A stretch of DNA of 37,454 bases, from positions 1-37,454 of the forward strand of contig JAFMIT010000003.1 in NCBI GenBank assembly GCA_017853815.1, in the 5' to 3' direction. The notes under the pieces were generated by a model. That model was not told the origin of the DNA, searched no databases, and saw nothing but the letters and a program-made list of their open reading frames with translations. The translations under genes were made by a program, and so were the position numbers. The stretch is from Actinomycetota bacterium. Its GTDB lineage: Bacteria > Actinomycetota > Actinomycetes > S36-B12 > UBA5976. Of this stretch, positions 8,458 to 36,717 are shown one piece after another (positions within the stretch are counted from its first letter, which is position 1; each line of letters begins with the position of its first letter).

Positions 8458-8498
8458 GATGTTTCCTAACTGGAGATGGAATGGAAAATTGCGTACTT

Positions 8499-9404
8499 TT
8501 AAAGCGCCGCTAAGGCAGCGCCGATAAGGCCAGCCTCAGATTCAAGTTTGGCTGGTCGAATATCTAGTCCCGAGAGAAACTCAATTCCTTCGGTGCGATG
8601 TTTCAGAGCTCTGCGAAGTGGTTCCCAGTAAATGTCACCAGCGCGAGACACGCCTCCACCGATCACCACGAGGCTGACATCAACGGTCGCAGCGACGTTG
8701 ACGATTCCAACAGCCAGCGAATCTGCACCATGTGCGATTGCGGCAATCGCAATGGCATCGCCGGCGCGAGCAGCGTCAGCCAAATCCATAAAGTCATCAG
8801 AGTCAGAAACCCAGCCATTATTTTTGGCCTGACGAACCATGTGTGGTCCACTTGCATAGACCTCAACGCAGCCACGCCGACCGCAAGGGCAGAGTTCGCC
8901 ATCAATCACGATGGTTGAATGACCAAAATAGCCAGCGTTGCCGGATTCGCCGACTTTCAGCTCACCGTCGAGCACAAGTCCGCCACCAATTCCAGTGGAC
9001 ACCACCATGCCGATCATGTTGCTGCTGCCAGCACCAGCGCCATAATGAAATTCAGCGTTTGTCATTGCAATGGCATCGCCATGCATCTTGACGCGCTCGC
9101 ACTCAAAAGTGCTGCGCAGAGAGTCAACCAAGGGAAAGTCTCGCCACACAGAAATGTTGACTGGGCTGACGGTTCCCTTGTCTACGTTGATAGGACCCGC
9201 CGAGCCAATGCCGATTCCCGTCATGGTGCCCGTTGTTGCACCAACGACGGATTTTGCTTCGACAACCAGTCGGTCCCAGAGCTCGTGTGCAGAGTTAGCG
9301 ACTGAAGAAATGCTCGAGGACTCAAGAAGTCTTCCGGAGAAATCCATTGATCCGATAGCGATCTTTGTTCCGCCAACATCAATACCAAGGATGTATTCGC
9401 TCAT
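8499..9404 (-). CDS. ROK-family sugar kinase
   Basis: ILGIDVGGTKIAIG N-terminal motif, STGIGGGLVLDGEL, Zn motif CPCGRRGCVEVYASG. Confidence 0.9.
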   Translation of the reverse strand: MSEYILGIDVGGTKIAIGSMDFSGRLLESSSISSVANSAHELWDRLVVEAKSVVGATTGTMTGIGIGSAGPINVDKGTVSPVNISVWRDFPLVDSLRSTFECERVKMHGDAIAMTNAEFHYGAGAGSSNMIGMVVSTGIGGGLVLDGELKVGESGNAGYFGHSTIVIDGELCPCGRRGCVEVYASGPHMVRQAKNNGWVSDSDDFMDLADAARAGDAIAIAAIAHGADSLAVGIVNVAATVDVSLVVIGGGVSRAGDIYWEPLRRALKHRTEGIEFLSGLDIRPAKLESEAGLIGAALAAL

Positions 9405-10417
9405 GCCTCGCCGCCCTCCTTAACCCGAAGCTGCATCACCGTGGTGACAAAGTTCTCTCCCGCCGGGTTAGCAAATCGATCCAACAAAACTCCTGCAGCT
9501 ATGCGGCCGATGGTCTGTGGATCGTGATCAAGAGTTGTCACCCCCAAGAGCGATGCTTGTGGAAAATCATCAAAGCTAATGATGGGAATTTCGCGTCCAG
9601 CTGCGCGCAGGCCACGGAGTGCACCCTGAGCAATCAAGTCGTTCGCCGCAATGATTCCGTCCACACCAATTTGGGACTTAACGAGATCGGTGATTCTTAA
9701 AAATGCGTCGTTTTCGTTGTGCACGCCAGAAATGACTTGGCAATCTGATTTCGATAATCCCAAACGAGCGAGTGCGCTGTTAAAGCCTGCAATTCGCTGC
9801 CCGGCTGTCCAAATGGATTCGTGGTCTGCGATCAAAGCGATGCGCTTCAACCCCTTGTTGGCAAGGTATTTCACACATTCGTACATACCTCCGTTGTTAT
9901 CGACAAGAACATTGTCGGCATCAAAGAAGGGGGCTGGGCGGTCAACAAAGACAAAGGAGAACCCTCTGCGACGCTCAGCATGAAGATATGAATAGTCCTT
10001 GCCTGAAGGCACCACCAACAGCCCACGAACGCGACGGCCGAGCAGCGAATCGATGAGCGCACTCTCACGCGCTCCGTCATCTCTTGCAGTTGCAATAATC
10101 AAGTCGTGCCCAGCTTCGGTCAGACGCTCTTCAGCTCCTGAGGCAAGACCTGCGTAAAACGGGTTAAAAAGGTCAGAAATGATCATGCCCACGAGGTTGG
10201 ACATCGGGCCACCGCGCAATTCGCGAGCGATGGCGTTTGTCCGGTACCCCAACAGATTGGCAGCCTCACGCACTTTGGCTGCGGTTTTTGGCGTGACATT
10301 GGCCTGATCGTTGACCACGCGAGAGGCAGTTTTGATGCTCACTCCGGCCACGGCGGCAACATCAGCTAGCGTCGGGTGAGCGACGATTCCAGTCTGGTCT
10401 GTAGGCGGCGTGGACAA
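9401..10417 (-). CDS. LacI/GalR-family transcriptional regulator
   Basis: TLADVAAVAGVSIKTASRVVNDQANVTPKTAAKVREAANLLGYRTNAIAREL HTH plus periplasmic-binding-like domain. Confidence 0.93.
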   Translation of the reverse strand: MSTPPTDQTGIVAHPTLADVAAVAGVSIKTASRVVNDQANVTPKTAAKVREAANLLGYRTNAIARELRGGPMSNLVGMIISDLFNPFYAGLASGAEERLTEAGHDLIIATARDDGARESALIDSLLGRRVRGLLVVPSGKDYSYLHAERRRGFSFVFVDRPAPFFDADNVLVDNNGGMYECVKYLANKGLKRIALIADHESIWTAGQRIAGFNSALARLGLSKSDCQVISGVHNENDAFLRITDLVKSQIGVDGIIAANDLIAQGALRGLRAAGREIPIISFDDFPQASLLGVTTLDHDPQTIGRIAAGVLLDRFANPAGENFVTTVMQLRVKEGGEA

Positions 10418-10513
10418 AAGTTCCCTCTCATGTGTATTCCTGCGTGGACCGAAAAGATGGTTCCTGCCCTGAGGTCATGAACCGACGTCGATTTCCTCAC
10501 GCCTGAGCACAAG

Positions 10514-10572
10514 GTGCAACGATGTCAATCAGAAAATCTACACCACACTGTCCATGTTTGACAACGATGTCA
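10514..10572. promoter_or_regulatory. Two direct copies of CAACGATGTCA (10517-10527, 10562-10572), putative LacI-type operators
   Basis: Seen in sequence; the second, TGACAACGATGTCA, is close to the palindrome TGACAACGTTGTCA; they lie between divergent lacI and the acyltransferase gene. Confidence 0.4.
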
Positions 10573-10579
10573 GATAGCC

Positions 10580-12796
10580 TTGGGGAGCCGTCATCGATAC
10601 CCAATACAGGCTTGGAGCTCCGTCTTGAGCACTCACTACATGGACAATAGTCATCGCGTCTACCCGCACATTGAGGGGCTGCGCGCAGTGGCAATCCTGG
10701 CGGTGGTAGCTCATCACATCGGACTGCTTCCTCGGGGCTTTCTGGGGGTAGACGCCTTTTTCGTCATTTCTGGCTTTCTCATCACCAGCCTGCTCATCCA
10801 AGACTTCGCCGTTGCCGGCCGAATCCGCCTGCTGACGTTCTACGCAAGACGTGCCCGCCGAATATTGCCGCTAGCAGGTCTCGTCATTGTGACCACTTTG
10901 CTGCTTGTCGCCTCGCAGGGAAATGAAGTCAGTACGCAGGCAGCGGCCAGAGAAGGTGTCTCCGCCTCGATATTCATGGCCAACTTTCATTACCTCGATC
11001 TCAGCACGGACTATTTCTCAACTATTGAGCACCCCGTCTTGCGAAACTTCTGGTCGCTAGCAGTCGAAGAGCAGTTCTACCTCGTTTGGCCCGCGTTGCT
11101 TCTCGCACTAGGGCTGGTGGCCAAGCGGAATTGGAGCAAGTGGGCAGTCGTGCTGGCGTCGGTCGTCACAGTTGCTTCACTGGCTGTGGGTCTCATCGTC
11201 GGTAATGCCAATCCAAACGCTGCGTATTTCATGCCTCACACAAGAGCGTACGAGCTCGGGATTGGAGCGCTACTGGCATTCCTTTCACAAAACGACCGCT
11301 TGCCGCGCCTACCAACTCTGTGGCGAACGTTTGTCTGCATCCTGCTTCTCGCAACTTTTCTCGTCACCACCCCGACGTACAACCCCGCGCTCCAGGCCCT
11401 GCCGACTGTCTTAATCACCGCCCTTGTGATTGCTCTGGGCCTGAAAGACTCGGTCATCGTCTTCGAGAGTCGAGTGCTCACCTACATCGGAAATCGGTCT
11501 TACGGCTGGTACCTGTGGCATTGGCCATTGCTCGTGATTTTTGGTTTAAGCACAGAAACGCCAGCGTCCCTTACCGAAATGTTCCTGATTGTTCTTGGCG
11601 CATTCGTTCTCAGTGATCTGGCCTATCGAATCTTCGAAAATCCAATTCGCCGCAGTGCCGCACTGAACAACAGTCCTCATAAAGCAATCTCGGTTGGACT
11701 TGCGTTTGCTCTCACTGCGCTTTCTATCAGCTTGATATTTACTCAGGACCGCTCCGTCGCCGCATCGCCCGAGCCCGAGCCAACCGCATCATCGAGCAGT
11801 CCCAGTGCACCTGAACCAACGCCGTCACCCACAGAAAGTGCCACTGAAAGCCCTACCGCTTCACCATCATCGACCGTGGCAACAACACCTGCTGCTCCAG
11901 CGGATCCAAAAGTGCAGGAACTTGTAGGAAAACTATCTGGCACTTCGAGCGCGGCTTTGTTGGCGCAGGTACAAAGCGTAATTCAAGGTGCTATCGATGC
12001 CGAAGCTTTCCCCTACAAAACGCTGCCTCGACTCGGAGACATTGTGCGAGATCGCAGTGCGTGGTTTGAGAATGGATGTTCGGTTGACTTCCCCAACACA
12101 GACGTTCCGGAGTGCGTCGGCGGCGATGACACTGCCGCGCGCACGCTCGTGCTCTACGGCGACAGTCATGCCACTATGTGGATGCCAGCGTTTGATCGCA
12201 TCGGCAAAGCCGAAGGCTGGAAGGTAGTGCTATTCGCAAAGTTGGCATGTCCACTGGTCGAAGAAAACGTGTGGAGCTACCAGCTGAACAAGCCATTCAA
12301 CGAATGTCAGGAGTGGCAAGCACAAGTTCTTCCCCGCATCGAAGCTCTCGCTCCAGAAATGATTGTCGTCACGGATCAATGGAAACCAGCAGTCAATAAC
12401 GGTGCGATTGATGACGCAGGCGTGGTGGCGCTATGGCAGCGAGCATTTCAGCCAGCGCTCGCCCGCCTATCCACCTACACCGATAACTTGGTAGTGCTTG
12501 GAAATCTTCCAAACATGAGTTCCGATCCGGCAACCTGCCTATCAACCCGCGGCACCGACCCATGGATCTGCACCACTTTGAGAGACGATGCAGAGTTCAG
12601 TGCTGTGCAAAAGATTGAAAAGAATGCAGCGCTCGCAGTCAAAGCGAAGTACGTCAATGTGATGCAATGGGCGTGCACCGTGCAATTCTGTCCAACGGTA
12701 ATCGGTGGACGAGTCGCCTACTTCGATCAGTGGCATTTCACCGACACATATGTTGAGTGGCTCGAGCCCTTGCTTAAAGTATCCGTCGGACTGTAG
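10580..12796 (+). CDS. OafA/YrhL-type acyltransferase with C-terminal SGNH domain
   Basis: HIEGLRAVAILAVVAHH..LPRGFLGVDAFFVISGFLIT, FWSLAVEEQFYLVWP, Pro/Ser/Thr linker, LYGDSHATMW and DQWHFT SGNH blocks. Start uncertain (TTG 10580 or ATG 10640). Confidence 0.88.
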   Translation: MGSRHRYPIQAWSSVLSTHYMDNSHRVYPHIEGLRAVAILAVVAHHIGLLPRGFLGVDAFFVISGFLITSLLIQDFAVAGRIRLLTFYARRARRILPLAGLVIVTTLLLVASQGNEVSTQAAAREGVSASIFMANFHYLDLSTDYFSTIEHPVLRNFWSLAVEEQFYLVWPALLLALGLVAKRNWSKWAVVLASVVTVASLAVGLIVGNANPNAAYFMPHTRAYELGIGALLAFLSQNDRLPRLPTLWRTFVCILLLATFLVTTPTYNPALQALPTVLITALVIALGLKDSVIVFESRVLTYIGNRSYGWYLWHWPLLVIFGLSTETPASLTEMFLIVLGAFVLSDLAYRIFENPIRRSAALNNSPHKAISVGLAFALTALSISLIFTQDRSVAASPEPEPTASSSSPSAPEPTPSPTESATESPTASPSSTVATTPAAPADPKVQELVGKLSGTSSAALLAQVQSVIQGAIDAEAFPYKTLPRLGDIVRDRSAWFENGCSVDFPNTDVPECVGGDDTAARTLVLYGDSHATMWMPAFDRIGKAEGWKVVLFAKLACPLVEENVWSYQLNKPFNECQEWQAQVLPRIEALAPEMIVVTDQWKPAVNNGAIDDAGVVALWQRAFQPALARLSTYTDNLVVLGNLPNMSSDPATCLSTRGTDPWICTTLRDDAEFSAVQKIEKNAALAVKAKYVNVMQWACTVQFCPTVIGGRVAYFDQWHFTDTYVEWLEPLLKVSVGL

Positions 12797-12799
12797 TTC

Positions 12800-15340
12800 T
12801 TACGCAACCACTAAACGGACTGCAATATCGCCCGCAAACTTTGGTGTCGTGACTTTTACTTTGAGTCCTACAGATCTCACAAGACTCGTCTTGAGTATTG
12901 CACCAGTCTGAACATTGATGAGCTGAACCTTGTATCTGCCCGCAGCAGCAACAGGCACCATGAAACTCGCTGCAAGAGCAGTTGGAACTCCGACGGCTCG
13001 AGGCTTGCGATTTTCTTTGAGAGCTTTGATCAGTTCTGCGGTCAACAACTTGATGCGTGCGCTTCGACTGTAATCAGAATGACGTACCCACACCAAGGTG
13101 CGACCGGAGCCAACCAACGCCTGCGTAATGGTGTGCTTGGGGCCAGCAATTTTTCTCGGGGTCATTGATGGCAGGTCCGCACCCGCAATCAAAACGCTCA
13201 AACTCTTCGTAGCACCCCACAGCTTGAGTGGATCGATGTACTCGTCCCACCACCAGTACATAGCTGGAGAACCAAAGCCTGCGAAAACTGCTGCCCATTG
13301 ACTGTTGTGCATGTGGAGGCCGGTCTTGTCGAGCGTTGGATCCTCGCCCGCTGCACCTGATCCCATTTCTGCAACGATGGTTGGCTTGCCTGGCAAAACA
13401 GTTTTCATCGATGGCGCAAGATTGCCCAAAGTCGCAATGGGATCAGCGTCGTTGTACACGTGAATTGAGGCAAAATCGACGTTGGACCAATCACGAAGAC
13501 TTCCACCCGAAGACCAGGAGGTGGTGGTGGGGTGGTTGTACGCATCAAGAGTTCTCAACAATTGATCCGACTCACGAATCCAGGATTGAAGTTCACTTGC
13601 GCCCATGGGCGTGAAGTCAACTTCGTTCCACCATTCCCACGATACAAGTGACGACTGCGCTCCCCAGCGGGCAACGACGTAGCGAAGCCGCTGTTCCCAG
13701 AACTTCTTGGCGTCGGCGGACGTCACGAACTCACCAGGACTATTTAGTGGTCCGCCATTGAGTTTGTTGTAAGGGTTATCGCGCCATTCGCTGTTGGTGG
13801 TCTCACTAAAGGCACCGTGATTGAGCAGCACCAAATTGATGTTGATGCCGTACTTAGCACCAAGCGCAAAGACTTGGTCCAGCTTCTTGGCACGATCTTG
13901 CCGCTTGGAATAGTCACCAAGACCAGTGTCTTTCCATTCGATTCCAAATCCCCAGGATGCCATCCACACACGAGCCCAATTAGCTCCATTGCGGGCGGCT
14001 TGCTTGAACCACTTGTCGTAGTCGGCGAGCGAATTTTGTTTTGACCAAGCGATGTTGTACCCGATTGGTGTGAACGGCTTTCCGCCACGGCTAAATCCTG
14101 TGCCGTTCACTTGAATCTGCGGAACCGATGCCTCAGCAAAAGTGAGACTTAATGGCTGAACCACTTTGGATAGATCAAGCGATCGGATGACACCACTGAC
14201 TCGCAGCGTCCACTGTCCAGCTTCGGTCGGTTTGAATCGAACGCGGAACACACCTTCGCCTCGTGGGAGTGCACCCGTGTAATCCTGGAACCAGAAGAAG
14301 GGACTGCGCACGATTTGCTTCGAAGGACCTTCGAATTCGGCCCAGATATTCGCTTGGTCGATTGAGAATGGATTCGCTACCGACGGAGTTCCCAGCAAAT
14401 CAATCTCTGCAGGAGTTTTCGAGTCACCAGCAGAAACCATGCGAGTAACAATGTCCGTAGGAACAGGGTCACAGGCAGCGGCATCAAAGATATCTCCGAC
14501 TCCTGCGACAGCCTGGAAATCAATGCTCTGAGTGTGGGGCACCATCAATGGTGCAGTTTGGCCACCGTACTCCACCAGTGCATACGCAAGCGGTTCGATA
14601 TCGCGAGCGTCATTCCACACGCCGGTGTTCGCCTTCATTTCAAGTGAGTTCTCACCACCCGCAAAAAAGTTGTTGGGCTCCCCGGCGGCCCAATTGGTAA
14701 ACGTGAAAAGTTGCCCGGCTTCAGGCCCGGCCATCCAGCGCCATTCGCCATCTTTTGCGGCATCACTTCCACCGAGCCAACCGCCGACGCCAAGCGTCGA
14801 GAGAACCTCGACTTCGCTCGCCGATGTCACGGTTGCCAAGTAGCCAGACATTCCGTTGAACGTGGACGCCAACGCTGTGCTGCTTGCTGCCTGCCAATTC
14901 GCATAGGTCCCAGCAATCGCTGCATAGAAGTGGCCATTGCTCGAAAGGTAAGAAGCACCAGCTGGCGCAATCATGACCGTGACGTTGCCTGGGCCGGCAC
15001 TGGCACCCCGCACTCTCAACGATGCCAGTGCCGCGGCGACGTCGGCGGCGTCGCCTTCGAACGCAATGCGTCCAGAACCCTTGGTCGAAGGACTTGACCA
15101 CCCAGCGACCGCATCAAGCCGATTCCGCACTGCAACGGCACCTATTCCGTTTGCGATCTCGATGGTTGCGCGGATTCGGGTAATGCCAACAGGAATATCG
15201 CCGATTACAACGCCTGGTAAGGCATCACAGGTCGTCGTTGAGACTTCAGGTGTCACAGCGGCACTCGGTACAGCCAGACATGAAACGCCCATCGCAAAAG
15301 TGACGAGAAGAGTCTTCAGGACTTTTGAAAAGCGATTCAC
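12800..15340 (-). CDS. Secreted C-type lectin-like + DUF5060-like + GH5-type glycoside hydrolase
   Basis: GTG at 15340 gives MNRFSKVLKTLLVTFAMGVSCLAVPSAAV signal peptide; CTL motif FTNWAAGEPNN...VWNDAR; FEGPSKQIVRSPFFWFQDY; GH5 motifs WEWWNEVDF and KPTIVAEMG. The longer ORF to 15571 overlaps the permease gene. Confidence 0.8.
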   Translation of the reverse strand: MNRFSKVLKTLLVTFAMGVSCLAVPSAAVTPEVSTTTCDALPGVVIGDIPVGITRIRATIEIANGIGAVAVRNRLDAVAGWSSPSTKGSGRIAFEGDAADVAAALASLRVRGASAGPGNVTVMIAPAGASYLSSNGHFYAAIAGTYANWQAASSTALASTFNGMSGYLATVTSASEVEVLSTLGVGGWLGGSDAAKDGEWRWMAGPEAGQLFTFTNWAAGEPNNFFAGGENSLEMKANTGVWNDARDIEPLAYALVEYGGQTAPLMVPHTQSIDFQAVAGVGDIFDAAACDPVPTDIVTRMVSAGDSKTPAEIDLLGTPSVANPFSIDQANIWAEFEGPSKQIVRSPFFWFQDYTGALPRGEGVFRVRFKPTEAGQWTLRVSGVIRSLDLSKVVQPLSLTFAEASVPQIQVNGTGFSRGGKPFTPIGYNIAWSKQNSLADYDKWFKQAARNGANWARVWMASWGFGIEWKDTGLGDYSKRQDRAKKLDQVFALGAKYGININLVLLNHGAFSETTNSEWRDNPYNKLNGGPLNSPGEFVTSADAKKFWEQRLRYVVARWGAQSSLVSWEWWNEVDFTPMGASELQSWIRESDQLLRTLDAYNHPTTTSWSSGGSLRDWSNVDFASIHVYNDADPIATLGNLAPSMKTVLPGKPTIVAEMGSGAAGEDPTLDKTGLHMHNSQWAAVFAGFGSPAMYWWWDEYIDPLKLWGATKSLSVLIAGADLPSMTPRKIAGPKHTITQALVGSGRTLVWVRHSDYSRSARIKLLTAELIKALKENRKPRAVGVPTALAASFMVPVAAAGRYKVQLINVQTGAILKTSLVRSVGLKVKVTTPKFAGDIAVRLVVA

Positions 15341-15380
15341 GATATTCCTGTCAGTGGATCCGAGCCTAGAAGTTTGGCGA

Positions 15381-16349
15381 TTACTTGATGCCCGAAAGCG
15401 CAATACCTCGAATGAAGTGCTTCTGAGCAACCAAGAAAAGCAAAACGGTCGGGATAGAGGCGAGAAGGCTGGCGCCCATGATGATGCCTTGCATACCGAT
15501 ATTGCCGGCACCGTTGTTTCGCAACATCGAAAGCGCCACTGGCAGGTTCCACATCTCAGGGCTGTTGGCAATAATCATCGGCCACAAGAAGTTATTCCAT
15601 TCGCCGATTGAAGCGAAGATCATCATGGCAATCATTGCTGGCTTAAGGAGCGGCAGAATGATTCGCCACCAAATCGTGAACTCACTGGCCCGGTCAATGC
15701 GAGCAGATTCGACGAGCTCATCCGGAATAGATGAAAGGTACTGAACGAGGAAGAAGACAATGAACGCTTTGGGAAGTGCCGGAATGATGTAAGCCCAGTA
15801 GGTATCGAGCCAGTTCAGATTACTCATCGTTAAGAAGTTGGGAATGATGCCGACCTGCCATGGAACCATCATCGAACCAATAATGGTCAAGTAAATCAGG
15901 CGCTTGCCCTTCATTCGATGCTTGCTAACAACGTATGCAGCGAGAGATGAGATGAGCATCGTGGCTACGGTGATGGTGACCACAATAAAGAGGCTGTTGA
16001 GAACGTAGTGGAAGAAGCCAAACTGGACTTCTTCAAAGCGTTGGAACAGACCGCGTTGATTGCTCGGATCAGTTGAGTTGTTGTTGACGTTTCCGAAGTT
16101 GGTATTGAAGTAGTTCACCAACAGCCATTTGTTCGGTACGACCGTGGGTGGAACTTTTTGAAGCTCTTGAACTGACTTAAAGGACGATGTAATCATCCAG
16201 TAGTACGGAGCAACCATGATGATGGTCGTGAGGTAGAGAGGAATTCTTCGGAGCTTGCTCCATTTGCTTCGCTTTTCGAAAGGACTCGAAAAGCCGCCAG
16301 CATCGAAAGTGTCTTTCGGTACAAACTCTTCTTGATCAATGATGGTCAT
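15381..16349 (-). CDS. Sugar ABC transporter permease (MalG type)
   Basis: PYYWMITSSFKS, EAA-loop ELVESARIDRASEFTIWWRIILPLLKPA. Confidence 0.93.
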   Translation of the reverse strand: MTIIDQEEFVPKDTFDAGGFSSPFEKRSKWSKLRRIPLYLTTIIMVAPYYWMITSSFKSVQELQKVPPTVVPNKWLLVNYFNTNFGNVNNNSTDPSNQRGLFQRFEEVQFGFFHYVLNSLFIVVTITVATMLISSLAAYVVSKHRMKGKRLIYLTIIGSMMVPWQVGIIPNFLTMSNLNWLDTYWAYIIPALPKAFIVFFLVQYLSSIPDELVESARIDRASEFTIWWRIILPLLKPAMIAMMIFASIGEWNNFLWPMIIANSPEMWNLPVALSMLRNNGAGNIGMQGIIMGASLLASIPTVLLFLVAQKHFIRGIALSGIK

Positions 16350-17320
16350 CGCAAATCCTCAAAACTCTTAGACAGCTTCAGGTTGATCAAACTGATGATG
16401 AAAATAATGCCGAAAAGAACCCATGCGATTGCCGACGCGTAGCCCAATCGGAAGTGAATGAATCCCTGGTCATACAAATACGGGACCAACATAAGCGCCA
16501 TATCCTGAAGGCCACCGACAGAGCCAACGCTGGTTGGGAAAAGAAGATAGACACCTTCGAAAATCTGGAAGGCGCCGATGATGCTTGTGATTCCGACGTA
16601 AGTCATCACGGGCTTGAGTAGTGGCAGTGTGATGTACCGGAAACGCTGGCGCGGATTTGCGCCATCAATCATCGCGGCTTCGTAGTAGTAGGTCGGAATG
16701 GAGTTGATGCCGGCAAGGAACAAGATCATGCCGTAGCCCGCCCCACCCCAGACAGACATGAGCACAAGAATCGGGACTGCGAGTGCGGGGGTAGCAAGCC
16801 ATTCGACTGGGGAGATTCCCATTGCAGCCAACACGCCGTTGAGCAGACCAACGCCATCGCCACGAAACACCCAGCCCCACACGAGGACTGTGGCAATGGA
16901 TGACGTCACAGAAGGTAAGAAGAAGACAACGCGCAAGATGCGATTCGATTTGGTGTCAGCTTGCAAAGCAATGGCCAACATCAACGAGGCAATAATTGTC
17001 AAAGAGACTGCGCCAACGACATAGTACGAGGTATTGAGAAGTGCCTTATGAAAACGATCATCTTCAAAGAAGAGTCGGTAGTAATTGCCAAATCGAACTG
17101 AGCCGCAGGGGCTGAGTTCTTCGTCGCAAATGGCGTTGTAACGCATGAAGGAGAGCCGGAAGCTTGCAAAGATGGGGTAGATGCTGAACGCAACGAACAA
17201 AAGAACGAAGGGAGCGAGCATCAGGTATGAACTCAGGCCAGAGTCGCTCCATTTGTAGAAGCCTTTGCGACGCTGCCGGGTGGGCTCTAAAGCGGTCACG
17301 GTTGGTGTCGACGTAGACAA
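16346..17320 (-). CDS. Sugar ABC transporter permease (MalF type)
   Basis: EAA-loop YYYEAAMIDGANPRQRFRYITLPLLKPV; ATGA overlap with the next gene. Confidence 0.93.
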   Translation of the reverse strand: MSTSTPTVTALEPTRQRRKGFYKWSDSGLSSYLMLAPFVLLFVAFSIYPIFASFRLSFMRYNAICDEELSPCGSVRFGNYYRLFFEDDRFHKALLNTSYYVVGAVSLTIIASLMLAIALQADTKSNRILRVVFFLPSVTSSIATVLVWGWVFRGDGVGLLNGVLAAMGISPVEWLATPALAVPILVLMSVWGGAGYGMILFLAGINSIPTYYYEAAMIDGANPRQRFRYITLPLLKPVMTYVGITSIIGAFQIFEGVYLLFPTSVGSVGGLQDMALMLVPYLYDQGFIHFRLGYASAIAWVLFGIIFIISLINLKLSKSFEDLR

Positions 17321-17381
17321 CCCAACTCACTCTCCTCGTTGTGGCCTCGTGGTAAGAATTTTTCGTGAGGGTCTTCCACCA

Positions 17382-17414
17382 CGTGAGGGACGGGTCTGGG
17401 ACCCGCCCCTCACG
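17382..17414 (-). terminator. Strong hairpin between substrate-binding protein gene and permease genes
   Basis: Minus strand CGTGAGGGGCGGGTC-CCA-GACCCGTCCCTCACG, 15-bp stem with one G-T wobble; no clear U-tract. Confidence 0.5.
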
Positions 17415-17472
17415 CGTTCTTTGGAAGAAACGACTTGGCCTCGGTGAGGCATTCAGTCGAATGTGTGCGTAA

Positions 17473-18717
17473 TTACTGCCGAGACTTCATGGCAGCTGCA
17501 GCGGCGTCAAGAGCGGCCTGAGCCGACTTGCCGTCGAAGAGGAAGGCTTGGATTTCCTTCGTCACATCTGCCTGGCTGTCTTCCCAACCAATGCAGTTCG
17601 GTGGACCCTGAGCCGTTGCGAGCTGGCTCTTGATGGTCTTGAGAACTGAGCTTGGGTAAGAAGCGATTGAGTCTGCGAACTTGATGACTGGCGACAAGAA
17701 GATCGAGTTCTCAACGGTACCAACAGAGTTCATTGCTGTAACAGTGTTGACGTCGTAGAGAGAACGGATGAACTTGGCAGCAAGTGCCTTCTTGGTCGAG
17801 TACTTCATAACGGAGATACCACGACCACCGATGAAGGAAACGCTCTTTGCACCAGGAGCTGCAGGAACAGGAATTGCATTCCAGTTCTTGTAGTCGCGGT
17901 AGTAGGTGTAGAGCGAGCTAGCCTGGAAGTTGCCAGAGAAGCCGATACCGTACTTCTTGTTCTTCAGGTTGTCGTTCATAGACCAGTCAGCAACACCGGG
18001 CTTTGGAGCACCGAAATCTGAATACAACTTCTTGTACTGATTCAGAGCTGAAACACCCTTTGAGTTGTTGATCGTGACTTTGCACTTTGCATCGTACAAA
18101 GAACCACCTGATGAGTACAGCCAGTTGAACCAGCCGAGCCAGTCAGCATTGCCCCACTCGTTGTAGACAGGAACCTGGATGCCTGCATCCTTCAATTTCT
18201 GGGCAGCAGCATTGAATTCTGCAATGGTCTTAGGTGCAGCAATACCGTTGTCAGCGAAGACGGTCTTGTCATAGAACATCATCATGAGGGTAAGGTCGTA
18301 AGGAACTGCATAGACCTTGCTCGAGCCGTAGGCAATGAGTGAGCGATAGATCTGTGATGGAACCTTTGGCTGCACGAAGCTAGCTACACCGAGTGGACGA
18401 AGGTCAGCGAGTGCGCCCTTCTGGCCAAGTGAGATACCCCATGACAAACCACCGGTGATGACGTCTGGACCCTTGCGAGCTGCTGCAGCTGCAAGAACCT
18501 TTGCATAGCCGTCGCCCCAGCCGATTGTTTGGACAGTTACCTTGACGCCAGGATTTTGGCGCATGAATACCTTGGCAGCCGCTTGGGTCACCTTGGTAGA
18601 AGCATCATCGCCTGTGGCCCATACGACCAAGTTCTTGGTTGCGGCTGATGCTGGTGGAGCCATCAGCACACCGACGGCCATCATCAATGTGATGGCAATC
18701 GCACCGAGTCGCTTCAT
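17473..18717 (-). CDS. Sugar ABC transporter substrate-binding protein (family 1)
   Basis: Signal peptide MKRLGAIAITLMMAVGVLMAPPASA; VTVQTIGWGDGYAKVLAAAAARKGPDVI; precedes the permeases. Confidence 0.92.
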   Translation of the reverse strand: MKRLGAIAITLMMAVGVLMAPPASAATKNLVVWATGDDASTKVTQAAAKVFMRQNPGVKVTVQTIGWGDGYAKVLAAAAARKGPDVITGGLSWGISLGQKGALADLRPLGVASFVQPKVPSQIYRSLIAYGSSKVYAVPYDLTLMMMFYDKTVFADNGIAAPKTIAEFNAAAQKLKDAGIQVPVYNEWGNADWLGWFNWLYSSGGSLYDAKCKVTINNSKGVSALNQYKKLYSDFGAPKPGVADWSMNDNLKNKKYGIGFSGNFQASSLYTYYRDYKNWNAIPVPAAPGAKSVSFIGGRGISVMKYSTKKALAAKFIRSLYDVNTVTAMNSVGTVENSIFLSPVIKFADSIASYPSSVLKTIKSQLATAQGPPNCIGWEDSQADVTKEIQAFLFDGKSAQAALDAAAAAMKSRQ

Positions 18718-18785
18718 ATTTCCTCCAATTCAGAAACGAACATAGACGGCGACTATCGCCGCGGTGGCGGAACCATCGCAGCAAA

Positions 18786-18799
18786 TGTCAACGTTGTCA
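18786..18799. promoter_or_regulatory. Near-palindromic TGTCAACGTTGTCA, putative LacI-type operator
   Basis: Central CAACGTTG, one mismatched pair in 14 bp, about 70 bp upstream of the SBP start. Confidence 0.45.
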
Positions 18800-18896
18800 A
18801 TAACTTTTTTCGGCGGTTTGCAGATGTCTTGCGGGACATTTTTGAGCGTGAATCGGACAAGTTGGGGACACAATCCCCATACTGCCTAGGGGGCTG

Positions 18897-19478
18897 CTAA
18901 GCCAACTTTCCGTCGAACTGAACTTGTTCTTTGTCGGTGATCGCAATCGTCACCGAAATCTTGGCGCCGGCAGTGCCTGGGCACGCCATTCCCCAGGGAA
19001 ATTCGACGGTGTCACCGGCTGCAAGGGGTTCGAAAGGCACGCCCATCAGGTTCTGGGACTCATCAAAGATATCCGCGCAGACGGCCTGCGTGTCTCCATC
19101 AATGTCGGTCTTCACGATGGCGACGCTAAACAAATCGATGGACTTCTTGGTGCCGTTTGTGATCGAAATGGTGAAAAGCTGTGGCAGTGCACCCTCTTCA
19201 AGGGCGCCCAAATCTGAAGGCTCGAAGGACTTCAGTTCCGTAGCCTGCACGCTGATGCCACCCTTGGTCTTCACGGGTTCGCCACCAAAGGTAGATGCGA
19301 GGGTGTCGAGCGGGTCTTCCTTCACCACGCCTGCGCCCACATCGCCATAGTCGTCCATGGGGACGAGTGGCCCACCAGTGAACAGGCCGTAAGCGAGCAT
19401 GACGGCAATTCCCAAGGGCACGAGGATGTAGCGCTTTTTCACGCCGCGAACTTTGGCAGCCTTGTCCAACGTTGTCAA
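18897..19478 (-). CDS. Small secreted or membrane-anchored protein with Ig-like (DUF4352-like) domain
   Basis: KKRYILVPLGIAVMLAYGLF hydrophobic N-terminus; LPQLFTISITNGTKKSIDLFSVAI. Start uncertain (TTG 19478 or downstream GTG). Confidence 0.65.
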   Translation of the reverse strand: MTTLDKAAKVRGVKKRYILVPLGIAVMLAYGLFTGGPLVPMDDYGDVGAGVVKEDPLDTLASTFGGEPVKTKGGISVQATELKSFEPSDLGALEEGALPQLFTISITNGTKKSIDLFSVAIVKTDIDGDTQAVCADIFDESQNLMGVPFEPLAAGDTVEFPWGMACPGTAGAKISVTIAITDKEQVQFDGKLA

Positions 19479-19515
19479 TCTTCAAGTTGCAACGATTTGC
19501 GGACCCGAATCGAGC

Positions 19516-20517
19516 CTAAACCCGGCTGTTGACCATTAATTCGAGCAGCTGACGGTCAATCTGGAAGCCCTCAATCGTTTCGTAACTGGTGTTCGGGCGA
19601 CCGTGATTGGCGATTCCAAAGGATCCTTCGAACTCCCACATTGAGTAGCCCCAGTTCGACTTCTTGAAGATTTCAAACAAGTCGTTAAACCACGCCAACG
19701 CAACCTGGTTGTCGGTGTAGCGGTAACAGCCAAACTCACCAATGTGAATCGGACGACCCTGGGCTTGGACGTCGCGCCACGGTCCATAGAACTCCCACAG
19801 CGAGTCTCGGTCCCAATGAACACCGTTGTAGTCGCAAGGATAGGTCGGAACTGGCATACCAATGCTGCCGTCCCACCATTCGGCTTTGTAATGCGACACC
19901 AACATCGGCTGGTAGCCGCGGCCGCTATGCACCGCGTCGAGATCTGCGAGCTCTGGCATAGCCAAGTGGCCGCCAGCGAGGCCGTTGATCACGATGGTGC
20001 GGGCCGGATCTACAGCCCGAATGGCGTAATGGACTGACCTGATGACCTCTGCGTGAATCTCGCGAGTGAAGCCACGCTGGCCAAGATCTGGTGGTTCGTT
20101 GACTAGATCGAAACTCAGAAGATCTGGGTGCTGTCCTTTGAAGTATTCGGCTGCGCGTGTCCATAGGGTCTCGAAAGCAACTTGGGCTACTGAATCGCTC
20201 CACAGGTTGGTGGCTTCAGTTTCCCAGCCAGTAATCACGTAACCCGGCGCGCGGTGCAGGTTGATGCTGATATGGATTCCTCGATCTACTGCAGCATCCA
20301 CATAGGCCTGGATGGTGTCAAGAAAACGATCATGGATTCTCATCTGACCATCAGGCTGAAGAGCATCCATCCAGAAGCGATAGTCAATGGGAATGCGCAA
20401 GAAATTGAAACCGTATTGCGCCATGAAATCGAGCATGCGAGGGTTGAAAGGCGCAGGTGTTTCACGATTGTGTGAACTAAAAGCCCACTGTGCATTGAAT
20501 CCATAACCGAGATTCAT
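19516..20517 (-). CDS. GH5 cellulase-family glycoside hydrolase, no signal peptide
   Basis: MNLGYGFNAQWAF, FLRIPIDYRFW, SFDLVNEPPD (acid/base), IHIGEFGCY (nucleophile); AGGAG 7 nt before the ATG at 20517; ORF track start is 20553. Confidence 0.88.
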   Translation of the reverse strand: MNLGYGFNAQWAFSSHNRETPAPFNPRMLDFMAQYGFNFLRIPIDYRFWMDALQPDGQMRIHDRFLDTIQAYVDAAVDRGIHISINLHRAPGYVITGWETEATNLWSDSVAQVAFETLWTRAAEYFKGQHPDLLSFDLVNEPPDLGQRGFTREIHAEVIRSVHYAIRAVDPARTIVINGLAGGHLAMPELADLDAVHSGRGYQPMLVSHYKAEWWDGSIGMPVPTYPCDYNGVHWDRDSLWEFYGPWRDVQAQGRPIHIGEFGCYRYTDNQVALAWFNDLFEIFKKSNWGYSMWEFEGSFGIANHGRPNTSYETIEGFQIDRQLLELMVNSRV

Positions 20518-20519
20518 AT

Positions 20520-21491
20520 TCATTCTCCTTTGAGAAGCAGTGAGCGCAACCATTGCGCCTGCTTAAGCTGTTGATCTACTCCGCCACCCTCATGGGTTGA
20601 GTACGGCCACACCTCAATCGACTTTTCTCCCTGCCAATGATTAAACGCAGCGAAGACAGTGTCCGGCGGGCAAATCGGATCATGCATACCGACTGAAAAG
20701 AGTGCGTGAGCATGTGCTCTGGCGGCGAAATTCATCCCGTCGAAAAATGCAATTGTGCCGAGCGTCTGCTCAACTGCATCGCGACGACCACGCAGGTAAG
20801 TGACGATTTCTTGATACGGATAACCGTCAGTCATTTCTATCGCTCGCGCAATGTGACTCAGAAAAGGTACGTCTGGCATCGCTGCATACACTTCCGGGCA
20901 GAGACCAGCAGCCGCAATAGCAATGCCTCCTCCCTGACTTCCGCCACCGACGATGATGCGAGCGGGATCGACGTTGGAGAGTTTCTGAGCTGCACGCACA
21001 AAGCAGACTGCATCTGTGTAGACGCGGCGATAAAAGTAGGTCTCAGGCGACTCAACACCATGAGTCATGAATCCTGGCGAGTGATTGCCTACTGGGTATG
21101 AGCCATCAGGTGTGTCTCCGCGCCGATGCCCGCTACCTTGTCCACGAGTGTCCATGACGAGTACCGCATATCCGCATGAGGGCCAAAAAAGCCACTCGTG
21201 AGGCAGGCCGCGACCGCCACCATATCCTTCGAAAATAACCACGCAGGGAACCCTCTTGTTGAGTTCCTTCGGTGTGATAAACCAGCCTTTGATGGGATCG
21301 TTGTTATAACCAGCAATCGTGATATCGAAAACGTCAACAGTTTCTAGCGGCCCGTCCCAACGCGTGAGAACTGGCTCTGATTCGTTGACGTAACGGTCAA
21401 GAGTGCTGGCCCAGAACGCATCGAAATCCGGTGCGACTGGAAGTGCGGGTCGATACGTTCGCAGTTCCTCAAGAGATTTTCCGAGCAGCAT
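20520..21491 (-). CDS. Acetyl xylan esterase / cephalosporin-C deacetylase (AXE1-type)
   Basis: FDAFWASTLDRY, VVIFEGYGGGRGLPHEWL, VMDTRGQGSGHRRGDT, GGGSQGGGIAIAAAGL. Confidence 0.9.
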   Translation of the reverse strand: MLLGKSLEELRTYRPALPVAPDFDAFWASTLDRYVNESEPVLTRWDGPLETVDVFDITIAGYNNDPIKGWFITPKELNKRVPCVVIFEGYGGGRGLPHEWLFWPSCGYAVLVMDTRGQGSGHRRGDTPDGSYPVGNHSPGFMTHGVESPETYFYRRVYTDAVCFVRAAQKLSNVDPARIIVGGGSQGGGIAIAAAGLCPEVYAAMPDVPFLSHIARAIEMTDGYPYQEIVTYLRGRRDAVEQTLGTIAFFDGMNFAARAHAHALFSVGMHDPICPPDTVFAAFNHWQGEKSIEVWPYSTHEGGGVDQQLKQAQWLRSLLLKGE

Positions 21492-21499
21492 TCTTACTC

Positions 21500-23332
21500 C
21501 TAACCTGGTAACCGTTGGGCAGCGAATAGTCGTGAATACGTTCCACCAGCGGCAACGAGATCCGTGTGCTTTCCAACCTCCACAATCGCACCCTTGTCGA
21601 GAACAACCAGCTTGTCTGCCTTTTGTACCGTGGAGAGTCGATGAGCAACGATGAACGTCGTGCGATTCGCCATTAATCGCTCTAAGCCCTGCTGAATTAA
21701 GCCCTCAGAGTGTGAATCTAGAGCTGACGTCGCTTCATCAAGAATCAGAATTCGCGGGTCGCGAATAAGCGCACGAGCAATTGCGATGCGTTGTCTCTGC
21801 CCACCTGACAGTCGGGCGCCTCTCTCGCCCACAACAGTGTTGACACCTTGTGGAAGCGATCGAACAAATTCCCAGGCATTTGAGGCTTCGAGTGCCTCAT
21901 GAAGTTTGTCGGGCGACACGTCTACGAGACCGTACGTGATGTTGTCTGCAATGGTGCCTTCAAAAAGAACCGACTCTTGCGGTACTACAGAAATGAACGA
22001 GCGCATCGACCTTAGATCGAGCGCCTGCATGTCCCGCCCGTCCAGAATGATGCGACCAGATGTCGGCCTCAGAAAGCCAATCACCAAGTTGATAAACGTT
22101 GATTTTCCTGAACCAGACGGACCAACCAACGCAATCGCTTGGCCGTGCGACGCCCTCAGTGAGACGTGGCTAATCGCTGGCGTAGGACTTTCAGGGTACG
22201 TAAATGTGACATCTTGAAATTCAATTTCGCCATCGACTCGATCAATTCGAGGTTTTCCGCTGTTGCTCTCAATGTCAGGTGACTGAAGAACTTCACCGAT
22301 TGAACGAATTGATTCCAAACCTTTGCTGATGATTGGCATGAGGCTTGCAAACAAAATGACTGAACCCGTCAGAATGTTGAAGTAGGTTGTCAGCAAGACA
22401 ACTTCGCCCGCAGTAATCGGCGCGGTCTGTGTGTACGAGAGCCAGCAGGCAACTACAAGACAGGTCACGTTGCACACCTGGAACGCAACCCATGCCATGG
22501 CACTGAAGCGAGCATTGATCGCGTCCAACCGAAGCCCAGCAATTCTCACTTGAGAGAAAGCGTTCGAGACTCGCTCCAAGGCACTCGACTCGAGTCCATG
22601 AGCTCGGGTGACCGGAATCAGATTCGTCATTTCCGTGACGCGAGATGACATCCGTTCGACTTCTTGGCGGAATTCTTGATTTCGGTCATCAAGCGACGAG
22701 CGCAAACGCACAATCAGAAAGGCGCAGATTGGCACTAACACGATGAGGAAAGGCAAAAACTGAGGAACGCGCACCGCAGTAATGACAACAGCCCCGATGA
22801 GGTTATTGAGTGCTGCTAACCCGCCGTCACCGATGTTTTTCAGCATCTGTTCAACTGCTTCAACGTCTCTGACAACTTTGGTTTGCAAGACGCCTGCACT
22901 CGTGCGCAGGTAAAAGCCCATCGAGAGTTGTTGAAGTCGTTCGGCGATGCTCGAGCGAAGCGAGTTCTCGAGGCTGCGCACCGCTCTACTCAAATATTTC
23001 ACATACAGGAGATTGATGGGCAGGTTTTGAATGATGAGGAACGCCATTAACGCTGCATTGATAAACAGTTCTCGAAGAGGACGGTGTTGGACGAGAACAT
23101 CAATAATGTTTGCAGTAAGTAGGGGTAATACCCAGCCTGGGCTGTGTTTGATGACGAAAAACACAAGCGATATCGCTAGATCTCGTCGATGACCACGCAT
23201 CAAGAACCACAGTGTTTGTAAGGGCGCTTCGCCTTCAAATCTATGCTCGAGAAATTCATCCGAGTGAGTGGGCGATGGGTTTTTCGACATCATCTGAGCT
23301 AATGACTCGTCGTCTGAGGATTTACTCCGCAT
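21500..23332 (-). CDS. ABC transporter, fused permease-ATPase (exporter type)
   Basis: N-terminal TM domain; Walker A GPSGSGKST, signature LSGGQRQRIAIARAL, Walker B ILILDEATSALD. Start may be 23293. Confidence 0.93.
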   Translation of the reverse strand: MRSKSSDDESLAQMMSKNPSPTHSDEFLEHRFEGEAPLQTLWFLMRGHRRDLAISLVFFVIKHSPGWVLPLLTANIIDVLVQHRPLRELFINAALMAFLIIQNLPINLLYVKYLSRAVRSLENSLRSSIAERLQQLSMGFYLRTSAGVLQTKVVRDVEAVEQMLKNIGDGGLAALNNLIGAVVITAVRVPQFLPFLIVLVPICAFLIVRLRSSLDDRNQEFRQEVERMSSRVTEMTNLIPVTRAHGLESSALERVSNAFSQVRIAGLRLDAINARFSAMAWVAFQVCNVTCLVVACWLSYTQTAPITAGEVVLLTTYFNILTGSVILFASLMPIISKGLESIRSIGEVLQSPDIESNSGKPRIDRVDGEIEFQDVTFTYPESPTPAISHVSLRASHGQAIALVGPSGSGKSTFINLVIGFLRPTSGRIILDGRDMQALDLRSMRSFISVVPQESVLFEGTIADNITYGLVDVSPDKLHEALEASNAWEFVRSLPQGVNTVVGERGARLSGGQRQRIAIARALIRDPRILILDEATSALDSHSEGLIQQGLERLMANRTTFIVAHRLSTVQKADKLVVLDKGAIVEVGKHTDLVAAGGTYSRLFAAQRLPG

Positions 23333-24444
23333 GCGTAGGCCTTGCCGTTACCACTGATGTCGCACAACTCAGCAGCAGCAATAAAGGCGGCACCGCCGGA
23401 CCTAACCGTGACAGAAGAAAGTCGGTTCGTGAGCGTGAGATAACCATCAACGCAGACTAGAAATGCGGCACCAGAAATGGTGCTCTTGCCTTCAGTAATC
23501 TCAAGATAGCTCAATGCGAAATACTCGCTATCGCTTGGCCAGGTAATCCAGCCACTTTCGCTCTGTGCACCCTGAAGAATGTGTGGCGGTGTCGCGTGCT
23601 TGTGAACCAAGTTCGATAGTTGACTCTGATCGATGTGTTTCGAAGTTAATCCTGCACGAACGACATTGTCCGAAGCTCCCATGACTTCAACAGCCAGCCC
23701 CGATAAATACGCGTGGATTAATCCGGCCCCCAAAAAGAGAGACTCATGGCGTTGAAGTTGGATGAGGTTGAGATACAGGGGCGCGAGGACTGTGATGTCT
23801 GTGGGCCGCTGTGCGTGGAGTGCGAAGACCCACTTCCACTCGTCGCTGACAACACCGTCAGCATTGAGGTCGGCAATCTCCTCGAAAATCTGCTTCTTGC
23901 TCGTGCTCTCCAAACCGAAGAGAGCCAAGAAGGCCTCGCCAGGTGTTTCAAAGTTGGTCGGAAGGTGAGCTGAAAGAGGAGCAGTCAGTTCACGGATTTC
24001 TTCAATGGAACGAAAACCGCAGAGTGCCGACACCTCGGTCAGCGCACAAATCTGTTCTGGCTTGTCGGAGCTATCCACGAAGACACGGGAGGATGAATCG
24101 ACGGGCACTCCCTGTGCGTTTTCTCGCTCAAAGCCTTCACGCGCTTGCTGCAGATTCGGGTGAACTTGAACCGACAAGGGTTTCGCGATGCCGAGGAATT
24201 TCAACAAAAAGGGCAGAGGCTCCGGCAACAGTTCGCTTAGTGGGGTCTGTCCTGAGGGGAGCTGAGCTACCGCTGTACCTCGCGGGTGAGTGCCCAACCA
24301 ATACTCAGCCCACGGGTGATCGTCTTTGGGACGGTTCAGGAGTGTGGGCAAAAGTTCCGTCGATCCCCAATCGTAGTTCTTCACGACACCGTCGATTAAA
24401 AACACGGATGAAGGATCGCTTTCGAACGGCATGTTTTCCAACAT
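23299..24444 (-). CDS. manA: Mannose-6-phosphate isomerase, class I
   Basis: GVVKNYDWGSTELLPTLL, AEYWLGTHPRG, LPFLLKFLGIAKPLSVQVHPNLQQA, LGAGLIHAYLSGLAVEVMGASDNVVRAGLTSKHID. Confidence 0.95.
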   Translation of the reverse strand: MLENMPFESDPSSVFLIDGVVKNYDWGSTELLPTLLNRPKDDHPWAEYWLGTHPRGTAVAQLPSGQTPLSELLPEPLPFLLKFLGIAKPLSVQVHPNLQQAREGFERENAQGVPVDSSSRVFVDSSDKPEQICALTEVSALCGFRSIEEIRELTAPLSAHLPTNFETPGEAFLALFGLESTSKKQIFEEIADLNADGVVSDEWKWVFALHAQRPTDITVLAPLYLNLIQLQRHESLFLGAGLIHAYLSGLAVEVMGASDNVVRAGLTSKHIDQSQLSNLVHKHATPPHILQGAQSESGWITWPSDSEYFALSYLEITEGKSTISGAAFLVCVDGYLTLTNRLSSVTVRSGGAAFIAAAELCDISGNGKAYACGVNPQTTSH

Positions 24445-27368: not shown

Positions 27369-29819
27369 TTACGAGACCTTGACGGTGAACGTAACGTTCT
27401 TGATGCCCACACGAACGGTGACCTTGAAGGTGCCCTTCGTGCGAGGGTGCATAACGATTGACTTAGATGAAGACGACGCCATGCGGGTCAGCTTGAGCGA
27501 ATCTGCGCCGTTCTGACGAACCACGTAGATCTTCTTGCCTTCCACACCACTCAAGTTCACCTTGATCATGCCAGCGCTGCCAGTCACTGAGATCGTGATT
27601 GGAGCCACTACCGCAGCCGCACGAGTGACCGTCAGGGTGTACGTCCGGGTGGTAGTGCCGTCAGCTGCTGTCACCACAACGTTGATGACGTTTGCTCCGA
27701 CAGCAAGTGCGACCGGAGTTGCAGTGTCGCTGTCAGCGGCCACGTTGTTGATAGTGATAGTCGCATCTGCATCAGAAGTGACAGCAGTGATGTTGAGAGA
27801 ATTCACAACATTACTTACACCCAGCGAGTGCTCCGTCATGTCGGTGTCAAAGTCGCGAGTGATGAAGTTTGAGGAGACGCTGAGCCCACTCAAAGCTGCA
27901 TTCGCCGACCGGACAACAATGTGGCTCCAGATGCGGTCACGGTTGATCGAGACTGCGCCTGTAACGCTTGGTGTCATGTCGAACTTGTACTCAGGGGACA
28001 CCGTACGGCTGTCATCCCAGTAGTCCATCGAACTTGGAGCAACCGGACGAGGTTCTGCATCCGTGTTGGTGTTCGTGAGAGTGAAGGTAACTTCACCGCT
28101 CGCGTTGGTGGTACCAGTCAGAGAACCCGTGAACGAGCTGTTCTGAGTTGGCGAGACCGCATCGAGAGTGACTTCGGCACCAGCAACTGGAGCGCCTCCA
28201 TCAGCCATGGTCACCGTGTAGGTGAATGTCAGTGTCCGTCCCTTTTCGGCGAACTTGACGAGGCTGCGTGAGCCATTGCCTTCGTTCCACCAGTACGACT
28301 TGTCAGACATGTGTGCAACATCCGCTGCACTGAGCTTGATGTTGACCAGCGGCTGAACGATGTGACCCCAGATGCGGTCACGGTTCGTCGAGACTGCGCC
28401 GGTAACGCTTGGCACAATGTCGAACTTGTACTCAGGCGACACGGTGCGGGTGTCGTCCCAGTAATCCATCGTGCTTGGAGCAACTGGACGTGGTTCAGCA
28501 GCGCTGTTCGTGTTGTTTAGAGTGAAAGTCACTTCGCCACTTGCATTTGTGGTGCCGGTGAGCGATCCAGTGAAGGAACTGTTCTGGGTCGCTGAAGTTG
28601 CATCAAGAGTGACCTCGGCACCCGCGACTGGCGCATTACCTGCGGCAGCTTCGGTGACAACGTAGGTGAAGGAAAGAACTCCACCCTTTTCGATGAACTT
28701 CACGAGGCTGCGTGAGCCATTGCCTTCGTTCCACCAGTACGACTTGTCCGACATGTGTGCAACATCAGAATCCTTGAGCTTGATGTTGACGCCTACTGCC
28801 TCCACCGTGTGTGTCCAAATGCGGTCACGGTTGGTCGAGGTTGCACCAGTGACACTTGGAACAATGTCGAACTTGTACTCAGGCGACACGGTACGGGTGT
28901 CATCCCAGTAATCCATGGTGCTTGGAGCAACTGGACGTGGTTCGGCAGCAGTGTTGGTGTTAGTGAGATTGAAGGTCACCAAACCATTTGAATCCGTCAC
29001 ACCTGTCAGCGATCCAGTGAAGGAGCTGTTGGTCGTTGGCGACTGCGCATCGAGAGTGACGGTTGCACCGGCCACAGCTGCGTTTGGTGCAGTTGCGTCA
29101 GTGACCTTGTAGGTGAATGACAAAGTCGAACCCTGAGAAACAAACTTCACCAAACTGCGTGAGCCATTGCCTTCGCTCCACCAGTACGACTTGTCTGACA
29201 TGTGTGCAACGTCAGCATCGCTGAGCTTGATGTTGACAGATGCTGGAATGACTGGCGCGGCCGTGTTGACGATGTGCGTCCACAGGCGATCGCGATTGGT
29301 CGAGGTTGCACCAGTTACTGACGGCACCATGTCGAACTTGTATTCGGGCGAAACTACGCGGGTGTCATCCCAGTAATCCATCGTGCTTGGAGCAACTGGC
29401 CGAGGCTCGGCAGCGCTGTTCGTGTTCGTCAGGCTGAAAGTCACTTCGCCGTTGGCGTTGGTAACTCCCGACAACGAGCCAGTGAAAGAGCTGTTGGTCG
29501 TTGGAGACAAAGCGTCGAGGGTGACGGTGGCGCCTTCAACTGGTGCGTTTGGAGCGACGGCATCGGTGACTTTGTAAGTAAACGAAAGCACCGAGCCTTT
29601 CTCAACAAACTTCACGAGGCTGCGAGAACCGCCACCTTCGTTCCACCAGTAAGACTTGTCTGACATGTGAGCCAGATCTGCATCCGACATCCTGATGATG
29701 ACGTTTGCGGGAACTACTGCCTGGGCGGTAGTTGGGACAAGAGCGCTCAGGCCAAGTGCAAGTGCACCGGAGAGCACAGCGGCGAGAAACCGCTTGCCAC
29801 GAGTGGCGATAGCTGTCAT
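27369..29819 (-). CDS. Secreted four-repeat protein with C-terminal cadherin-like beta-sandwich domain
   Basis: ATG at 29819 behind AAAGGAAG; signal peptide MTAIATRGKRFLAAVLSGALALGLSALVPTTAQA; four repeats with SDxDxAHMSDKSYWWxEGxGSRSLVKF; C-terminal LSGLSVSS...NVINVVVTAADGTTTRTYTLTV (PF12733-like). Confidence 0.85.
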   Translation of the reverse strand: MTAIATRGKRFLAAVLSGALALGLSALVPTTAQAVVPANVIIRMSDADLAHMSDKSYWWNEGGGSRSLVKFVEKGSVLSFTYKVTDAVAPNAPVEGATVTLDALSPTTNSSFTGSLSGVTNANGEVTFSLTNTNSAAEPRPVAPSTMDYWDDTRVVSPEYKFDMVPSVTGATSTNRDRLWTHIVNTAAPVIPASVNIKLSDADVAHMSDKSYWWSEGNGSRSLVKFVSQGSTLSFTYKVTDATAPNAAVAGATVTLDAQSPTTNSSFTGSLTGVTDSNGLVTFNLTNTNTAAEPRPVAPSTMDYWDDTRTVSPEYKFDIVPSVTGATSTNRDRIWTHTVEAVGVNIKLKDSDVAHMSDKSYWWNEGNGSRSLVKFIEKGGVLSFTYVVTEAAAGNAPVAGAEVTLDATSATQNSSFTGSLTGTTNASGEVTFTLNNTNSAAEPRPVAPSTMDYWDDTRTVSPEYKFDIVPSVTGAVSTNRDRIWGHIVQPLVNIKLSAADVAHMSDKSYWWNEGNGSRSLVKFAEKGRTLTFTYTVTMADGGAPVAGAEVTLDAVSPTQNSSFTGSLTGTTNASGEVTFTLTNTNTDAEPRPVAPSSMDYWDDSRTVSPEYKFDMTPSVTGAVSINRDRIWSHIVVRSANAALSGLSVSSNFITRDFDTDMTEHSLGVSNVVNSLNITAVTSDADATITINNVAADSDTATPVALAVGANVINVVVTAADGTTTRTYTLTVTRAAAVVAPITISVTGSAGMIKVNLSGVEGKKIYVVRQNGADSLKLTRMASSSSKSIVMHPRTKGTFKVTVRVGIKNVTFTVKVS
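27908..29705 (-). repeat. Four tandem coding repeats (units start about 29705, 29237, 28790, 28346)
   Basis: Intervals 468, 447 and 444 bp by alignment of the VNIKLSDADVAHMSDKSYWW block. Confidence 0.9.
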
Positions 29820-36701: not shown

Positions 36702-36717
36702 GATTGTTCCTTTACCT

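Follow-up and report, generated by a model that had tools for sequence, protein, structure and literature searches.

The repeat gene and its surroundings

The window, by which we mean the whole stretch of 37,454 nucleotides analyzed here, carries on its minus strand a gene for a protein with four tandem modules, whose ATG start codon is preceded just upstream by a ribosome-binding-like AGGAAG. The features of this gene, and the carbohydrate cluster lying beside it, are as follows.

27369..29819, minus strand: coding sequence of the four-module secreted protein, 816 aa (ORF call; start codon and RBS-like stretch)
29718..29819, minus strand: Sec signal peptide, residues 1-34, MTAIATRGKRFLAAVLSGALALGLSALVPTTAQA (sequence and hydropathy; putative cleavage between ...TTAQA and VV)
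29268..29702, minus strand: unit 1, residues 40-184 (repeat comparison, alignment, full-length model)
28803..29237, minus strand: unit 2, residues 195-339 (repeat comparison, alignment, full-length model)
28356..28790, minus strand: unit 3, residues 344-488 (repeat comparison, alignment, full-length model)
27915..28346, minus strand: unit 4, residues 492-635 (alignment; modelled alone, mean pLDDT 95.8)
28251..28325, minus strand: first decoration and strand A of unit 4, ADVAHMSDKSYWWNEGNGSRSLVKF (alignment and model; W21 and K33 nearly invariant across the family)
27978..28058, minus strand: second decoration of unit 4, AEPRPVAPSSMDYWDDSRTVSPEYKFD, 28 residues inserted towards the end of the Ig sandwich (alignment and model; E100 and W112 invariant)
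27621..27887, minus strand: Cadherin-like beta-sandwich PF12733, residues 645-733 (Pfam match)
27372..27620, minus strand: basic C-terminal domain, residues 734-816, 13 K/R versus 2 D/E (composition)
4619..24444, strand unspecified: carbohydrate cluster with GH28, GH2, ROK, LacI, a DUF5060 protein, two permeases and a solute-binding protein (SBP), GH5, AXE1 esterase, ABC exporter and mannose-6-phosphate isomerase (linked to the repeat gene by proximity and strand only)

The four repeats, already noticed in a sequence-only reading of the window, are far above chance expectation. The units are 144-145 residues long, share 77-85% pairwise identity and recur every 147-155 aa, with short linkers of about 3-10 residues between them, and they were also detected independently as DNA repeats (spacing of 441-465 nt, 73-77% identity). 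The same reading had proposed that the protein is secreted and had seen no covalent anchor, and both points were corroborated. The hydropathy maximum corresponds to the signal peptide segment, no further transmembrane helix was seen by hydropathy, no LPxTG motif was found by inspection of the sequence, and the 816 residues include no cysteine, and therefore no lipobox. A cadherin-like sandwich had been placed in each repeat, and this has to be revised: residues 645-733, a clear member of PF12733 (62.9 bits versus a cutoff of 24.2, profile positions 3-88 of 89 aligned), form a single copy that follows the fourth unit and is distinct from the repeat. No catalytic domain was found in the protein with Pfam.

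As a conjecture, the basic tail could attach to anionic polymers of the envelope. Weak relatives of this domain were found at the end of G004:C71 and of two other proteins; with only these three in 39 genomes, the idea of a common sorting signal was rejected.

The repeat gene lies 3-6 kb from the cluster, which is apparently of the mannan/hemicellulose degradation type. It is followed downstream, on the same strand, by two small ORFs (no Pfam match), a double-TetR protein, mannose-6-phosphate isomerase, the ABC exporter, the AXE1 esterase, GH5, the importer, GH2, and GH28, the AXE1 gene being the nearest enzyme gene at about 6 kb. No GH16 gene was found on the contig, nor any promoter- or terminator-like site informative on operon membership of the repeat gene. 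The double-TetR gene (24546-25739) encodes one protein with two TetR_N DNA-binding domains; of six related genomes, three have matches to it, all of them weak and partial. On the opposite side of the repeat gene, a second sugar ABC importer (SBP and two permeases) and a SIS-domain protein are encoded at 33686-37410.

A bacteriorhodopsin-like gene of the actinorhodopsin type (31036-31818) shares 64-87% identity with genes of three related genomes. This gene, the genome size of 1.7 Mb and the usual origin of such metagenome-assembled genomes (MAGs) suggest that the organism is probably from freshwater. In a search for a syntenic orthologue of the repeat gene, the rhodopsin flanks were not conserved in G001, G016, and G006, and the gene thus lies in a variable region.

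Fold and family of the repeat unit

The repeat unit is a lineage-specific variant of the bacterial Ig-like domain, with a Big_1 core and two aromatic decorations. Unit 4, modelled alone with AlphaFold2 from an alignment of 40 units from nine genomes, was predicted as one compact all-beta Ig-like domain (mean pLDDT 95.8, pTM 0.88), with strands at residues 2-7, 29-36, 40-49, 60-66, 74-76, 79-81, 87-94, 123-130, and 134-146. The conserved blocks and the Ig segment, previously described as separate parts of each repeat, are thus parts of a single decorated domain. In a four-unit full-length model, the fold was repeated four times in tandem with a pLDDT of mostly 80-90 per unit, with an uncertain relative arrangement of the units (pTM 0.46) and a poor C-terminal third.

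The invasin-like character of the Ig segment was borne out by a Big_1 (PF02369) match on the whole window protein, in four stretches, at 47.3 bits against a cutoff of 34.9. It aligns to roughly residues 42-97 of the unit, its best stretch covering about positions 18-71 of the 93 in the profile; the match is partial, and the unit exceeds the Big_1 profile by about 50 residues. The all-beta model and the Foldseek matches, which are Ig-like folds, agree with the beta-sandwich of Big_1. In a sequence-profile search of the PDB, intimin and invasin were the best matches (E about 7e-4), over the core region only, and a search of solved folds gave intimin D00-D0 (6tqd) among the best, with a TMq of 0.44 and none above 0.5 among the 50 PDB matches listed. 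The unit shares with invasin and intimin the core strands and the TDANGxVTFTL signature, but it adds an N-terminal strand/helix/loop extension and the 28-residue insertion. Neither the N-terminal outer-membrane beta-barrel nor the C-terminal C-type lectin-like domain of that family was matched with Pfam, and the signal peptide directly precedes unit 1.

The first aromatic block corresponds to the N-terminal extension, which precedes the first core strand and runs into it (residues about 10-34); the second spans residues 95-122, between the GEVTFTL strand and the next strand. Both were predicted with high confidence despite little regular structure. Across the 40 units, Y45, L63, G86, F90, E100, W112, D139, and H144 are invariant, and W21, K33, G38, T48, T82, T89, A99, W142, and V146 are near-invariant; several of the aromatic and polar residues among them (W21, K33, E100, W112, D139, W142, and H144) lie in loops of the confident model. 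The blocks had been called unfamiliar and they remain so, as no Pfam, NCBIfam, or PDB entry spans the whole unit, Big_1 covering its core only. Pfam scans of the unit proteins gave no match to a named carbohydrate-binding module (CBM) family. An NCBIfam match to nucleoside-diphosphate kinase (E 0.0035, far below the cutoff) was set aside as chance.

Evolution of the unit and its association with GH16

Strong unit matches were found in 9 of the 166 genomes of the order, all from one family. An absence of orthologues had been named as a refutation of the earlier reading, but about 50 other ORFs of this actinobacterial family contain the domain. When a 10-row alignment pattern was run against a collection covering 84,980 species, six loci were returned, all in Actinomycetota MAGs, while the single window protein as query gave no match in this collection. 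Among 395 genomes sampled across the class, G455 was the one from outside the order in which units were found, and these are divergent. A phage origin was rejected, with no tblastn match in phage records and none in IMG/VR; a PHROG match of the whole window protein disappeared when single units were scanned, and a viral fold search with the unit returned only Ig/Big_1-like folds.

In the tree, the four window units cluster (support 81/89), are mutually nearest and adjoin units of G034, G006, and G031 (82/87), indicating that they were amplified within the window lineage. Comparing whole units in pairs gives a dS of 0.8-1.9 and a dN of 0.13-0.20; within the blocks, dN is 0-0.09. As judged from these substitution rates, block conservation is due to purifying selection on old copies, and recent homogenisation, one of the explanations first offered for it, was rejected as the main cause. 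Two lower block dS values, 0.25 for the second block of units 2 and 3 and 0.23 for the first block of units 3 and 4, suggest that short gene-conversion tracts between window units are possible.

When the list of unit matches was compared with the list of GH16 matches, 11 of the 53 unit ORFs were found to share their open frame with a GH16 domain; in nine of these ORFs the units are divergent. In G030:C48, a full-type unit (residues 23-167) lies N-terminal to GH16 (residues 173-434), only a few residues apart, and its orthologue G063:C58 likewise has a full-type unit followed by GH16. The closest PDB relatives of the G030:C48 domain, the one GH16 compared, are endo-beta-1,3-glucanases and laminarinases (3atg, 9voq, 2hyk). 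A discrete domain appended to a carbohydrate-active enzyme, as expected of a CBM, thus occurs in these 11 relatives and not in the window protein.

A GH16 gene was located within 10 kb of 23 further unit ORFs, alongside GH1, LacI, SBP, and permease genes. In relatives, the usual locus reads SBP, two permeases, GH1, LacI, between one and three GH16 and from one to four unit proteins, and a sugar-ABC ATPase is often present as well. G004:C71 has no GH16 in its vicinity, and neither do several unit genes located on short contigs. In the genome to which the window belongs, other, broken contigs carry four matches to GH16 and three to GH1, and a divergent unit protein adjoins one GH16 (C176). In G455, which belongs to another order, a locus examined after the hypothesis had been formed is arranged as LacI-GH1-GH16-GH16-unit-permease-permease-SBP-GH16, with a two-unit protein, and a second unit protein is encoded near another GH16. 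At the genome level, units and GH16 co-occur (13/15 versus 2/28, Fisher 2.6e-7, shared ancestry ignored), also within genus g5 (8/8 versus 0/16 genomes, 1.4e-6, likewise ignoring shared ancestry). All nine genomes with strong units contain GH16, and the 28 GH16-free genomes gave only two weak unit matches. One actinobacterial protein (L036:10560-11843) combines a GH16 domain with an OmpA-like domain.

A putative glycan-capture protein and the alternatives

Non-catalytic sugar-binding modules that work with glucanases are known from other bacteria. In a GH17 beta-1,3-glucanase of Vibrio, a linked tryptophan-bearing beta-sandwich binds laminarin (PMC9026390), and in Bacteroides non-catalytic surface glycan-binding proteins (SGBPs) act together with GH16_3 (PMC7157763). 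Like the CBMs of beta-1,3-glucanases (CBM4, CBM6, CBM56, and others, including the GH17-linked one), the unit is a discrete beta-sandwich joined to GH16 with conserved tryptophans; it differs in having no Pfam CBM match, in its Ig/Big_1 lineage and in its free-standing arrays, and its binding is putative. As in the beta-glucan loci of Bacteroidetes with their SGBP-A/B, a secreted protein free of catalytic domains is encoded in relatives within a polysaccharide utilisation locus, next to GH16, further hydrolases and a transporter. However, no sequence relation was found, a Gram-positive ABC importer takes the place of SusCD, and the lipid anchoring typical of SGBPs is missing from the cysteine-free window protein. 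By analogy, the window protein is best read as functionally similar to these SGBPs.

The unit very probably serves beta-glucan utilisation as an accessory module. We consider it reasonably probable, in addition, that it is an Ig-like (Big_1-type), CBM-like polysaccharide-binding accessory module and that the window protein, which is secreted and has four modules but no catalytic domain, captures glycan. Of the roles first suggested for the conserved blocks, ligand or self-assembly function, ligand binding is the better supported by the GH16 fusions and loci. The unit would bind polysaccharide, most often beta-1,3-glucan, in the manner of a CBM, and most likely grips laminarin-like polymers because relatives join it to laminarin-cutting enzymes. 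The window protein, presumably exported by Sec as four tandem modules with a cadherin-like spacer and a basic tail, may be retained on the anionic cell envelope by this tail and would hold polysaccharide on the cell or close to it for separately secreted glycoside hydrolases and ABC importers, the multiple unit copies raising avidity. Because its neighbors form a mannan/hemicellulose-type cluster and GH16 is absent from its contig, there are two candidates for its own ligand: beta-glucan, the probable ligand in most relatives, and a mannan-type polymer.

Two rivals to glycan binding are serious. On glycosidases, Ig-like and Fn3 modules often do no more than keep domains apart, and the unit may likewise be a rigid linker that holds catalytic or other domains off the cell wall, its blocks being ligand-free folding features. 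Spacer roles are common among Big_1, Fn3, and Cadherin-like domains, the unit family is often combined with Fn3, the short linkers would suit a stiff rod, and the conserved W, D, and H are possibly packing residues. Yet four to six units occur in proteins devoid of a catalytic domain (the window protein, L034, and L033), loop residues as strictly conserved as those of the blocks are rare in spacers, and a spacer would be expected on other secreted proteins too, whereas the unit is tied to GH16 genomes. We therefore regard a purely structural role as unlikely. Still less probable is an envelope anchor, in which the unit would bind the cell's own wall or surface glycan and hold GH16 enzymes and itself on the cell. 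A sortase motif, transmembrane helix or lipobox is lacking, such retention would benefit the GH16 fusions and multi-unit proteins, and the tail of the window protein is strongly basic; but an anchor should also occur in GH16-free genomes and on unrelated secreted proteins, in conflict with the genome distribution given above. An adhesin or self-assembling surface fibre with no nutritional role, for which the tandem invasin-like Ig domains, the Cadherin-like domain and the closeness to intimin and invasin in the PDB might speak, is very improbable, as the Ig core alone matches and the GH16 fusions and conserved glucan locus do not fit.

If the unit is a glycan-binding module, it may, as a tentative extension, found a new CBM family with a decorated invasin-type Ig fold and its own aromatic, acidic and histidine site, and the free-standing arrays would be, in these actinobacteria with small genomes, Gram-positive counterparts of SGBPs capturing algal laminarin, perhaps mannan. 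With about 145 aa and a confident model, it is a concrete candidate domain for such a family. Streamlined planktonic Actinobacteria are usually regarded as users of small solutes. The capture of algal beta-glucan by some of them would be explained by a module that is specific to the lineage, present in many copies and tied to laminarinases, and a likely function would follow for dozens of secreted repeat proteins that lack annotation in freshwater metagenomes.

Five other secreted proteins (L038:8042-10867, L038:11162-13636, L037:1-2745, L037:2911-5538, and L083:8634-9593) are encoded beside unit or glucan genes. An N-terminal 'FESDDxxG...' domain gave no credible Pfam match for two copies (the N-terminus of L038:8042-10867 and L083:8634-9593) and no credible PDB match for the L038 copy. 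In the L038, L037, and L083 proteins, this domain resembles a jelly-roll CBM, and it shares a chain with full units in two proteins.
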